DNA from: Akkermansia muciniphila | GTDB lineage: Bacteria > Verrucomicrobiota > Verrucomicrobiia > Verrucomicrobiales > Akkermansiaceae | Assembly (NCBI GenBank): GCA_945873305.1 | Contig: CAMCCX010000017.1 | Coordinates: 1 to 43,661, forward strand | Length of the DNA stretch: 43,661 bases | Reading direction: 5' to 3' | Part shown: in pieces, positions 12,054-15,149 of the stretch | How positions within the stretch are numbered: position 1 is the stretch's first letter | How the letters are laid out: the number at the start of each line of letters is the position of its first letter | The notes under the pieces: model-generated | Database searches by the model: none | The model's input: the letters and a program-made list of their open reading frames with translations, nothing else | What the model was told of the DNA's origin: nothing | Translations under genes and position numbers: made by a program

Positions 12054-13316
12054 ATGTCATACCAATTCTCACAATTTGGCCAACACCTCGGCTGCGGCAG
12101 CGGGATCGGCGAGCTGATGGACGACCTCGGCCACGCCCTCGCCAGCGGCGGCCCGGACTTGAAAATGCTCGGCGGCGGCCAACCCGCCCGCATCCCCGAG
12201 ATCAACGCCGTCTGGCGGCGGCGGCTTGAAGAACTGATGGAGGAAATGGGCGGCCTCGAGCGCGCCCTCACCACCTACGACCCGCCGGGCGGAAATCCGC
12301 ATTTCATCCAAGCCATCGCCACCCTCTTCCGCGAGACCTTCGGCTGGGACCTCGGCCCGGAAAACGTCGGCGTCACCAGCGGTGGGCAGACCGCTTTCTA
12401 TTTCCTCTTCAACCTGCTCGCCGGGCCGATGCCCGACGGTAGTGTTCGCAAGATTTTGCTCCCGCTCGTCCCCGAATACATCGGCTACGCAAACCAAGGT
12501 GCCAGCGGCGATCTGTTCCGCGCCATCACCCCGCTCATCGAAAAAACCGGCCCGCACGAGTTCAAATACCGCGTCGATTTCGACCAGCTCGAAGTCACGT
12601 CCGACATCGCCGCGATCTGCGCCTCCCGCCCCACCAATCCCACCGGCAACGTCCTCACCGACGAGGAAATCGCCCGACTCTCCGCCATCGCCAAGGAGCA
12701 CGACATCCCGCTCATCATCGACAACGCGTACGGCGCGCCCTTCCCCGGCATCATCTTCGCCGACGCCACGCCGTTCTGGGAGAACCACGTGATTTTGACC
12801 CTCAGCCTCTCGAAACTCGGCCTGCCCGGCACCCGCACCGGCATCGTCATCGGCCCGCCGGAAATCATCCGCGCGCTCGGCTCGATGAGCGCCATCGCCG
12901 GACTATCGAATCCGAACATCGGCCAGCAAATCACCCTGCCGCTGATCAAGTCCGGCGAGATCCTCCGCCTCAGCCGCGAGGTCGTCCGCCCGTTCTACCA
13001 GGAAAAATGCCGGCTCGCCCGCCAGGCCGCGATGGACGCGTTCGGCGACGACATCGACTGGTTCATGCACCGCAGCGAGGGCGCGTTGTTCCTCTGGTTC
13101 TGGTTTCCCGGCCTGCCGATCACCTCCCAGGAACTCTACGAACGCCTGAAACAACGCGAGGTCCTCGTCATCCCCGGCCAACACTTCTTCTTCGGCCACG
13201 ACGACGCAAACTGGCCGCACCGCCACGAATGCATCCGCGTTTCCTACGCCATGGACGAAGCCGTGGTCCGCGACGGCCTGAAGATCATCGCCGAGGAAGT
13301 CCGGCGGCTGAAATAA
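12054..13316 (+). CDS. avtA: Valine-pyruvate aminotransferase AvtA
   Basis: The 420-residue protein is a PLP-dependent fold-I aminotransferase and follows the Escherichia coli AvtA sequence closely throughout as I recall it: MLGGGQPARIPE, NPTGNVLTDEEIARL, IPLIIDNAYGAPFPGIIF, LSLSKLGLPGTRTGIVIG (PLP lysine in SLSKLGLPG) and EGALFLWFWFPGLPIT. It transfers amino groups between valine (or alanine) and 2-oxoisovalerate or pyruvate, giving an alternative route in valine and alanine synthesis. The ATG at 12054 matches the family start; the frame is open upstream only across the peroxiredoxin gene. The stop is followed after one base by the first copy of the 64-bp palindromic repeat. Confidence 0.94.
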   Translation: MSYQFSQFGQHLGCGSGIGELMDDLGHALASGGPDLKMLGGGQPARIPEINAVWRRRLEELMEEMGGLERALTTYDPPGGNPHFIQAIATLFRETFGWDLGPENVGVTSGGQTAFYFLFNLLAGPMPDGSVRKILLPLVPEYIGYANQGASGDLFRAITPLIEKTGPHEFKYRVDFDQLEVTSDIAAICASRPTNPTGNVLTDEEIARLSAIAKEHDIPLIIDNAYGAPFPGIIFADATPFWENHVILTLSLSKLGLPGTRTGIVIGPPEIIRALGSMSAIAGLSNPNIGQQITLPLIKSGEILRLSREVVRPFYQEKCRLARQAAMDAFGDDIDWFMHRSEGALFLWFWFPGLPITSQELYERLKQREVLVIPGQHFFFGHDDANWPHRHECIRVSYAMDEAVVRDGLKIIAEEVRRLK

Positions 13317-13317
13317 A

Positions 13318-13381
13318 GTGTCCCGACTGTCTCAGTCGGGAGCCGAGTCTCCGGTTCCGGCTGAGACAGCCGGAACACATT
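13318..13381 (+). repeat. 64-bp REP-like palindromic repeat, copy 1
   Basis: This element begins GTGTCCCGACTGTCTCAGTC and ends CCGGAACACATT. It folds into two hairpins: CCCGACT/AGTCGGG with loop GTCTC, and TTCCGGCT/AGCCGGAA with loop GAGAC. The two loops are complementary, and the whole unit is an imperfect palindrome with GTGT and ACAC ends. It matches copy 2 (13988-14051) at 62 of 64 positions in the same orientation. It starts one base after the avtA stop and probably works as a transcript end. Confidence 0.9.
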
Positions 13382-13456
13382 GCCCAAAGCGTCGTCACCG
13401 GCGGGGCCCCCCGCTTGCGGGCTTCCACCGCCTGAATTTCGTGCTACGGTCCAATC

Positions 13457-13678
13457 ATGCCAAGCGTGTGCGATCAAATCCCCAATCTCTCGACGGCTGA
13501 AAAACTGATTGCGATGGAAGCCTTGTGGAGCAGTCTTCACCAGACCTTCGAGGATTCCGACCCGCCAGACTGGCATCGTGAAATCTTAGATCGCAGGATG
13601 GCATTGATCGAATCCGGACAGGCGGTTTACGAGGACTGGAACCAAGTCAAAAGAGAGTTGAGGGATCGCACCGCGTGA
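13457..13678 (+). CDS. Type II antitoxin, addiction-module component family
   Basis: The 73-residue protein reads MPSVCDQIPNLSTAEKLIAM at the start, then a WSSL...EDSDPPDWHREIL core. This resembles the short 'addiction module component' antitoxins (putative TIGR02574-type) that pair with ParE/RelE-like toxins. The helical N-terminus plus a flexible acidic and Trp-containing C-terminus would wrap the toxin. Its TGA overlaps the toxin's GTG start (GTGA, four bases), the usual arrangement of such pairs. Upstream, 76 bp separate it from repeat copy 1; that gap must hold any promoter and autoregulatory operator. Confidence 0.85.
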   Translation: MPSVCDQIPNLSTAEKLIAMEALWSSLHQTFEDSDPPDWHREILDRRMALIESGQAVYEDWNQVKRELRDRTA

Positions 13679-13983
13679 GAATCGAGGTCCTCACCCACGC
13701 CAAGGAGGATCTCTTCGACGGCTACCTTTTCTACGAACGCCAGGAAGCAGGCATCGGCGATTATTTCCTGGATTCCCTCAGCGCGGACATCGAATCGCTA
13801 CTCCTTCATCATGGCTATCACCGCCGGTTTTACGGTTTTCATCGGATGATCGCGCGCGTGTTTCCGTTTTTCATCTATTACCGCGTCAAGGATGAGACGA
13901 TTTACGTCGATGCCGTGGTGGATCAAAGAAGGAATCCAGCCTCAATCAAACGACTGCTCCATCGTTTGATGCGGGGAGAGTGA
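13675..13983 (+). CDS. ParE/RelE-superfamily toxin
   Basis: The 102-residue protein has the RelE/ParE fold signature: an N-terminal strand with acidic helix (MRIEVLTHAKEDLFDGYLFYERQ), a central YHRRFYGFHRMIARVFPFFIYYRV strand region with basic residues, and the ending DAVVDQRRNPASIKRLLHRL typical of the plasmid-stabilisation (ParE) branch. Such toxins inhibit gyrase or cleave mRNA at the ribosome; the exact target cannot be predicted. It starts at a GTG that overlaps the antitoxin stop. Repeat copy 2 begins four bases after its stop. Confidence 0.88.
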   Translation: MRIEVLTHAKEDLFDGYLFYERQEAGIGDYFLDSLSADIESLLLHHGYHRRFYGFHRMIARVFPFFIYYRVKDETIYVDAVVDQRRNPASIKRLLHRLMRGE

Positions 13984-13987
13984 GGAC

Positions 13988-14051
13988 GTGTCCCGACTGT
14001 CTCAGTCGGGAGCCGAGCCTCCGGATCCGGCTGAGACAGCCGGAACACATT
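13988..14051 (+). repeat. 64-bp REP-like palindromic repeat, copy 2
   Basis: It is identical to copy 1 (13318-13381) except for two bases in the spacer between the hairpins (GAGCCTCCGGAT here against GAGTCTCCGGTT). It has the same orientation and lies between the toxin stop and the stop of the convergent sugar kinase, which abuts it directly. It can therefore serve as a bidirectional 3'-end structure. The two copies bracket the toxin-antitoxin pair as direct repeats 670 bp apart. Confidence 0.9.
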
Positions 14052-15149
14052 CTAGCGGACGACCCGCGCGCCGCCGCCGCCGATTTGTTTTTCGACTTCC
14101 TTGCGGGTGACCATCGAGGTGTCGCCGGGCGTGGTCGAGGCGAGCGCGCCGTGGGCGGCGCCGTATTCGACGGCTTTCTGGGCGTCGTTGAACTCGAGGA
14201 ATCCGAACTGCAGGCCGCTTGCAAAGCTGTCACCGCCGCCGACGCGGTCCATGATTTCGAGGCCGGGATATTTGCGGCTTTCGTGGAATTTCCCCTCGTG
14301 CCAGAGGATCGCGGACCAGTCGTTGACGGTCGCGGAAATCACGCCGCGCAGGGTGGTGGCGGCGACCTTGAAGTTCGGGAAGGTCTTCACCGCGGTTTCG
14401 ATCATCGCCTTGAAGGCGTCCAGCTCGATGGCGGAAATGTTGTGGTCCACGCCCTCGACCTCGAAGCCGAGCGAGGCGGTGAAGTCCTCCTCGTTGCCGA
14501 TCATGACATCCACGTATTTCGCGATCTCGCGGTTCACTTCCTGCGCTTTCGCGAGGCCGCCGATGGTTTTCCAGAGCGACGGGCGGTAGTTGAGATCGTA
14601 GGAAACAACGGTGCCGTATTTGTTAGCGGCCTTCACGGCCTCCACGGTGAGGGCGGCGGTGGATTCCGAGAGCGCGGCGTAAATCCCGCCGGTGTGGAAC
14701 CAGCGCACCCCGAGCTTGCCGAAGATGTGGTCCCAATCGACGTCGCCCGGCTTGAGCTGGGAGGCGGCGGTGTTGCCGCGGTCGGGATTTCCCACCGCGC
14801 CGCGGATGCCGAAGCCGCGCTCGGTGAAATTCAGGCCGTTTCTCACCTTGCGGCCGATGCCGTCGTCCTCGCGCCATTGGATGAAATCCGTGGCCACGCC
14901 GCCCTGCATGATGAAATCCTCGATCAGGTGGCCGATTTCGTTATCGACGAACGCAGTGACCACCGCGGTCTTGTAACCGAAACATTTCCGCAGGCCGCGC
15001 GAAGTGTTGTATTCGCCGCCGCCTTCCCAAGCTTGGAAATTGCGGGCGGTGCGGATGCGGCCTTCGCCGGGATCGAGACGGAGCATGACTTCGCCCATCG
15101 AGAGTTGGTCAAAGGCGCATTCGGATTTCGGTTTGATCGTGAGTGACAT
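14052..15149 (-). CDS. PfkB-family carbohydrate kinase, 2-keto-3-deoxygluconate kinase-like
   Basis: The 365-residue protein is a ribokinase-fold sugar kinase. The N-terminal FDQLSMGEVMLRLDPGEGRI and WEGGGEYNTSRGL (sugar-binding Gly-Gly) match KDG kinases, and the C-terminal DRVGGGDSFASGLQFGFL is the PfkB signature with the catalytic Asp. It would phosphorylate 2-dehydro-3-deoxygluconate in uronate or Entner-Doudoroff-type catabolism; the aldolase partner is not in the window. The spacing NDWSAILWHEGKFHESRKY is seen in long verrucomicrobial and planctomycete versions (recalled). It is monocistronic or leads an operon with nothing close downstream except the palindromic repeat. Confidence 0.85.
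   Translation of the reverse strand: MSLTIKPKSECAFDQLSMGEVMLRLDPGEGRIRTARNFQAWEGGGEYNTSRGLRKCFGYKTAVVTAFVDNEIGHLIEDFIMQGGVATDFIQWREDDGIGRKVRNGLNFTERGFGIRGAVGNPDRGNTAASQLKPGDVDWDHIFGKLGVRWFHTGGIYAALSESTAALTVEAVKAANKYGTVVSYDLNYRPSLWKTIGGLAKAQEVNREIAKYVDVMIGNEEDFTASLGFEVEGVDHNISAIELDAFKAMIETAVKTFPNFKVAATTLRGVISATVNDWSAILWHEGKFHESRKYPGLEIMDRVGGGDSFASGLQFGFLEFNDAQKAVEYGAAHGALASTTPGDTSMVTRKEVEKQIGGGGARVVR

Follow-up and report, generated by a model that had tools for sequence, protein, structure and literature searches.

Introduction

The "insertion with long target duplication" (ILTD) has been described for restriction-modification systems (Nobusato et al. 2000, as presented in parts of PMC3031569, PMC1643837, and PMC3874152). 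Sister-chromatid integration in the transformation of another bacterium doubles the stretch that lies between its two joints (PMC3784515, in the part cited), and homology-facilitated illegitimate recombination is the subject of a further paper (PMC3240628, cited for that passage). For toxin–antitoxin (TA) pairs, a review describes the mechanisms of integration as unelucidated in the section cited (PMC7167474). Among the matches listed for titles and abstract openings in the open-licence literature, no description was found of TA cassettes between REPINs or of TA insertion with target duplication.

The window analysed here, a whole stretch of 43,661 nucleotides from Akkermansia muciniphila, is contig C17 of a 3.06-Mb genome of 171 contigs (G000); the other genomes named below (those with G numbers, Prado247, and 337R) are relatives of it. 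The locus under study, a TA pair between two repeats, is like ILTD, as given in the cited parts of its sources, in that an addiction-type unit is present or absent between relatives, has long and variable direct copies of the target around it, carries no transposase in the insert, and is linked to rearrangement (PMC3031569, PMC1643837, PMC3874152). The insert-free allele has one copy of the bracket in both cases (here at the G001 and G011 junctions, and in the pnp–mazEF-like region of G011 compared with Prado247), and the long variable direct repeats of ILTD, in the order of 100 bp, have their counterpart in brackets of 64 bp to 292 columns. In contrast to ILTD, the cargo is a type II TA pair and not a restriction-modification system, and the duplicate in the window is one REPIN-like repeat, with the cassette recurring beside other copies.

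The locus is also like REPINs and RAYTs in having a dispersed doublet of inverted palindromes, with a RAYT-like gene between two copies elsewhere in the genome (PMC3116915, in the part cited), and unlike the REPIN/RAYT systems described in the cited parts of PMC3116915 and PMC2817692 it has a protein-coding TA cargo between the repeats. Finally, it resembles the TA cassettes of chromosomal integrons in that a whole TA operon forms a small unit (PMC2654758, in the part cited).

Results

A TA Pair between Two Near-Identical Repeats

The coordinates of the locus are collected in Table 1. The two repeats of the window are identical at 62 of 64 positions (97%) and lie 670 bp apart, and each is an inverted repeat in itself, folding to a long hairpin. 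The avtA stop ends at 13316, and the last base of the right repeat is next to the kinase stop codon, which lies on the minus strand at 14052. The sequence-only reading of this DNA had described two near-identical palindromic repeats around the TA pair, with one repeat at the stop of each neighbour gene, and it was borne out on both points. Local alignment of the upstream with the downstream flank gave a score of 62, whereas 200 mononucleotide shuffles reached no more than 23; under stricter scoring the value was 58, and 3000 control intervals from 55 avtA/kinase loci did not exceed 15. The repeat pair of the window is beyond chance.

Table 1. Features of the repeat–TA–repeat locus and of its two flanking genes in the window.
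Feature	Position	Strand	Description
avtA, valine–pyruvate transaminase (flank)	12054..13316	+	420 aa; NF006964, 573.7 bits vs. cut-off 467
Left REPIN-like repeat	13318..13381	+	Two inverted REP-like palindromes; 1 base 3' of avtA stop
Cassette leader, left repeat to antitoxin	13382..13456	+	Alignable to the G001 copy at its other site
Antitoxin (predicted)	13457..13678	+	73 aa; PF09720 (Unstab_antitox, putative addiction module component), E 4.5e-15
ParE-like toxin (predicted)	13675..13983	+	102 aa; PF05016 (ParE_toxin), E 6.3e-5; GTG start overlaps antitoxin stop
Right REPIN-like repeat	13988..14051	+	Adjoins kinase stop; matches single repeat of TA-less site
PfkB-family sugar kinase (flank)	14052..15149	-	365 aa; PF00294, E 4.1e-15

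The enclosed genes are a predicted type II TA module of the PF09720/ParE type, in which an antitoxin and a toxin family occur as an overlapping pair. The Pfam score of the toxin is barely above the threshold (23.9 bits, cut-off 23), and neither protein matches any NCBIfam model. The window toxin had five close matches (85–98%) in named genomes, all of them Akkermansiaceae-type metagenome-assembled genomes. Between G000 and G001, the toxin differs by one amino acid, its gene having 2 altered bases in non-synonymous codons beside 7 synonymous differences; in the antitoxin, 8 bases are altered in non-synonymous codons and 4 changes are synonymous.

A Dispersed Family of REPIN-Like Repeats

Whether the repeat has further copies in the genome was a question raised by the sequence-only reading, and such copies were found in quantity, ruling out a repeat private to this locus. 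In G000, at least 72 matches were counted on both strands (40 of 94 candidates scored), and at least 58 sites stood among the matches listed. The window and 36 stretches of its own genome held 44 repeat places, two of them short pieces. An exact half-site occurred 101 times in G000, 49 in G001, 11 in G011, 23 in G013, and 8 in G021, this last genome being the sole carrier among the six searched outside the G000/G001/G011/G013 group; it was not found in the whole genomes of G003, G009, G020, G022, and G023. As a control the pattern was reversed, and none of the 10 genomes searched for the half-site contained it in that form.

Judged by its sequence, the repeat is REPIN-like, that is, a dispersed doublet of inverted palindromes making a hairpin. 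The window copies begin with GTGT and lack the GT(A/G)G head that PMC2817692 gives for REPs in the part cited, and it is for this reason that we name them REPIN-like and not REPINs.

Most of the listed repeat sites are unpaired within 1300 bp. Seven pairs at most 1300 bp apart were counted, against 1.41 expected (58 sites, among the matches listed), so that the TA locus is not alone in having paired repeats; further repeat pairs were located on contigs C94, C30, C33, and C87. On contig C58 (L015:3293-4059), a 96-bp direct repeat (97%), consisting of a REPIN-like copy plus flanking bases, surrounds an ORF of 160 aa that matches no Pfam family. Searched in six relatives with 40 candidates scored per genome, this C58 cargo gave one match among the matches listed, of 187 bp in G003, and the C58 flanks fell on different contigs wherever both were found (G001, G011, G003, G020).

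The avtA–Kinase Junction in Relatives

Twenty-eight relatives were searched with both neighbour genes, avtA and the kinase. The two genes lie side by side in two of them, G001 (contig C2) and G011 (contig C62); in the other 26 of the 28, either one best match was missing or the two stood on separate contigs or far from each other, and contig breaks may conceal further cases. In both G001 and G011 the junction lacks a TA and has a single repeat, located at the kinase end, which is the empty junction that the sequence-only reading had envisaged in related strains.

This single repeat is 98% (G001) and 97% (G011) identical to the right copy of the window, and the left copy is 95% identical to the single copy at the kinase end of G001. 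Taken together, the two window repeats match the single copies of G001 and G011 at 94–98%, compared with at most 91% for 25 other copies of their own genome (hand-picked from 42). That the window repeats are nearest to the resident copy of G001 and G011 points to a duplication of the resident repeat; counting against this, the own-genome copies L032 and L033 are 97% alike and stand at unlinked sites. In the kinase locus of G013, a repeat is found at the same end, beside a different gene, and is 83–86% identical to those of the window.

A 16-base scar, identical to the window bases directly before the left repeat, was found in both G001 and G011, and their avtA 3' ends differ from that of the window. 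At these junctions (L140/L141), a fragment lies between the replaced avtA 3' end and the 16-base scar of the former avtA end; on its minus strand it contains a VapC-like piece, read by eye (translated in G001).

Loss of a TA pair can also leave one repeat, so that G001 and G011 possibly do not represent the state before insertion. A tree built on the tails of pnp did not resolve the branching order of the close relatives, and thus gives no date for gain or loss. We infer a gain at the avtA–kinase junction of the window, and not a loss in G001 and G011.

TA Copies at Other Sites in G001 and G013

G001 has its TA pair at position C1:81884, between unrelated genes, with 96.0% DNA identity to that of the window (the pnp tails of G000 and G001 are 95.2% identical). 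The best local alignment of the two sites covers 13320-14051 of the window, with both repeats inside, and the homology ends there. The two repeats around the G001 pair are 64% identical to each other and 72–74% to those of the window, and these flanks fail the shuffle test (21 vs. a shuffle maximum of 31). The G013 region corresponding to the left flank of this site has neither TA nor repeat, so the unit may there have brought its own repeats instead of duplicating a resident one; the right flank is rearranged relative to G013.

G013 presents a TA remnant on contig C32 (L139 3500-3640), made of two fragments of 81 and 48 bp that end in a truncated repeat directly 3' of lspA. The lspA–nrdR gap contains a single full repeat and no TA in G000 and G001, and a degenerate repeat in G011. 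One flank of the remnant, on the Gfo/Idh side, is located elsewhere in G001. The TA or its remnant therefore occupies a different site in each of G000, G001, and G013, each time adjoining a repeat of this family. Both the relocation of the TA unit and its bracketing can be taken as well supported, and the relatives indicate a unit that moves.

Other Direct Repeats around the TA Family

An orthologous TA pair comes after pnp in G023, Prado247, and 337R, whereas the pair of G020 is preceded by an incomplete copy of pnp and by a second small pair of genes. The order in Prado247 is pnp, terminator, TA, a copy of the pnp 3' end and terminator, and a mazEF-like pair, whose toxin is PemK/MazF-like and whose antitoxin matches MazE below the cut-off. 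The bracket spans 292 columns of the pnp 3' end and terminator at 88% (score 217 vs. a shuffle maximum of 24). G011 shows the order pnp, terminator, mazEF-like pair, with no TA, and is homologous to Prado247 over 613 bp at 76%. In 337R, a terminator region of 156 columns forms the bracket (77%; score 80 vs. a shuffle maximum of 23), and G023 (18 vs. 19) and G020 (17 vs. 21) fail the shuffle test for flank repeats. The 337R TA is 85.2% identical to that of G000 compared with 94.9% for pnp, a conflict suggesting that horizontal transfer probably takes part.

A distant member of the family in G005 (52% toxin identity) follows the 3' end of ffh (SRP_SPB domain), and pieces of 145 and 112 bp of this ffh end recur 3' of the TA. 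In G034, which belongs to a different family of the same order, non-coding bracketing repeats of 160 bp were found (85%, compositionally simple), with a stop in the toxin frame. The half-site of the REPIN-like family was absent from the 11 loci of G005, G034, Prado247, and 337R that were searched for it.

The pnp 3' region (L176, L177, L136, L137, L181, L190, L191) is a hotspot for TacA-like, MazEF-like, and PF09720/ParE TAs, where partial pnp copies remain in several genomes; in G021, a TacA-like gene is followed by a decayed copy of the pnp end.

To place these brackets against a background, 38 TA loci were reduced to 29 distinct testable ones (L057 and L058 had no toxin match, three were too short, and four duplicates were dropped). 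Direct repeats scoring 19 or more, a threshold chosen after the scores were seen, flanked six of the 29, against none of 3000 random intervals from 55 avtA/kinase loci (maximum 15), a control not matched for recently gained genes. It replaced an earlier one drawn from all loci, those with TA included, in which 2.07% of 1500 intervals scored 20 or more. Five of the TA loci score at least 42, and the sixth (G001, 19) corresponds to 22 columns of repeat. The remaining 23, with the orthologues of G023 and G020 among them, have no such repeat.

Discussion

A Probable Insertion into a Resident Repeat

The reading that we regard as probable is that a TA cassette was inserted in the one REPIN-like repeat that stood between avtA and the sugar-kinase gene, with duplication of the target, and probably via homologous recombination. 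The repeat is more likely a duplicated target or a homology arm than an obligatory carrier. The sequence-only reading had proposed a mobile REP-borne cassette. Its mobility was supported by the single-repeat, TA-less junctions of G001 and G011, by the G001 TA located elsewhere between related repeats, and by a RAYT-like gene, interrupted by one in-frame stop, between two copies of the repeat family; that the cassette would be REP-borne in general was not supported, given the other direct repeats in Prado247, 337R, G005, and G034. That reading was to be refuted by the repeat standing at hundreds of gene ends without cargo together with a TA pair in the same place, with unrelated flanks, in relatives. 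One half of this holds, the repeat standing at dozens of sites and most of the listed ones being unpaired within 1300 bp; the other does not, for the TA or what remains of it lies elsewhere in G001 and G013.

The insertion would have proceeded by homologous or short-homology recombination, without a dedicated transposase. The single REPIN-like repeat would receive the TA and be doubled, giving repeat–TA–repeat. The donor could be a circle, or its ends could join sister chromatids, in which case one cassette end would connect with the downstream edge of the target on one chromosome copy and the other end with its upstream edge on a second copy, producing target–TA–target. The transformation-linked duplication of PMC3784515, in the part cited, would give the same target–insert–target order, and it is put forward here as a proposed route. 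Dispersed repeats may serve as ready-made landing pads at dispensable gene ends, an addictive TA would select against its own loss, and direct repeats would permit precise excision, back to one repeat.

Two other vehicles were considered as well. No transposase gene was seen in the unit and the duplications range in length between 64 bp and 292 columns, which is at odds with a conventional transposon. The attC sites of integrons are not known to differ from site to site as the brackets do here, where the bracket may be the repeat, the pnp end, the ffh end, or a terminator region; an integron cassette is thus not favoured.

A RAYT-Like Gene and Alternative Routes

In the search for a RAYT gene, which the sequence-only reading had proposed, a RAYT-like gene carrying one in-frame stop was found on contig C36 of G000 between two copies of the repeat family, 682 bp apart. 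A RAYT (REP-associated tyrosine transposase) could have mobilised repeat–TA–repeat in its entirety, as a composite, non-autonomous element; a repeat–RAYT–repeat unit could travel likewise, and the layout on C36 equals that of the TA locus. The closest relative of the gene among 12 genomes searched (72%) is in G021, the half-site carrier outside the G000/G001/G011/G013 group, and this route would also agree with the homologous block of G000 and G001 ending with the repeats, and with G013 having no repeat at the G001 site. However, besides its stop, the examined part of the C36 gene scores 20.6 in Pfam, below the cut-off of 23, and none of its best matches in G001, G011, and G013 exceeds 45% identity. 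In addition, TAs of the family are also found between other duplications, and both window repeats resemble the resident repeat of G001 and G011 and not the repeats of the G001 TA. We consider transport by a RAYT rather unlikely.

In the same genome, ispG (GcpE, PF04551; L156:254-2860, G000:C27:28253-30859) has an in-frame Y1/RAYT-like transposase domain within a frame of 869 aa, and the RAYT query also matches long frames of 809–907 aa in G013, G023, G005, G008, and G011.

As a second alternative, repeat–TA–repeat could be ancestral at the avtA–kinase junction, with the repeats recombining and the TA thereby lost in G001 and G011, and with its other sites reflecting chromosomal rearrangement and not insertion. 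Direct repeats favour deletion, the G001 site is a rearrangement junction relative to G013, and the Gfo/Idh flank of the G013 remnant is elsewhere in G001. Nevertheless, this history requires a TA loss in both G001 and G011 plus a gain elsewhere in G001, it leaves the duplicated pnp and ffh ends unexplained, and the divergence of the 337R TA relative to pnp points to horizontal movement; we judge it unlikely. Finally, it is quite unlikely that a TA reached the kinase-end repeat by another route and that a second repeat was later copied to its other side, a coincidence that would suit the near-identical L032 and L033 at unlinked sites and the clustering of repeats even without a TA, but not the adjoining of TA or remnant to this repeat family in three relatives, every time, nor the recurrent bracketing of the TA family by other direct repeats.

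Implications for the Movement of TA Pairs

Beyond the insertion into a resident repeat preferred for this locus, we tentatively put forward a broader possibility, in which type II TA modules would be mobile in their own right, entering the 3' ends of genes with target duplication and needing no transposase of their own, and REPIN-like repeats would be dispersed landing pads or exchange points, a TA hopping from repeat to repeat with precise excision possible. Within one TA family, the genomes compared here offer a junction lacking the TA, sites that are filled and have their flanks duplicated, and, among close relatives, a TA relocated between repeats, and the question of how TAs move thus becomes directly testable. 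If true, an insertion mode of restriction-modification systems would be extended to toxin–antitoxin pairs, and REPIN-like repeats would gain a possible role as gene landing sites. The bracketed TA pairs of these relatives suggest how such pairs may move around genomes.
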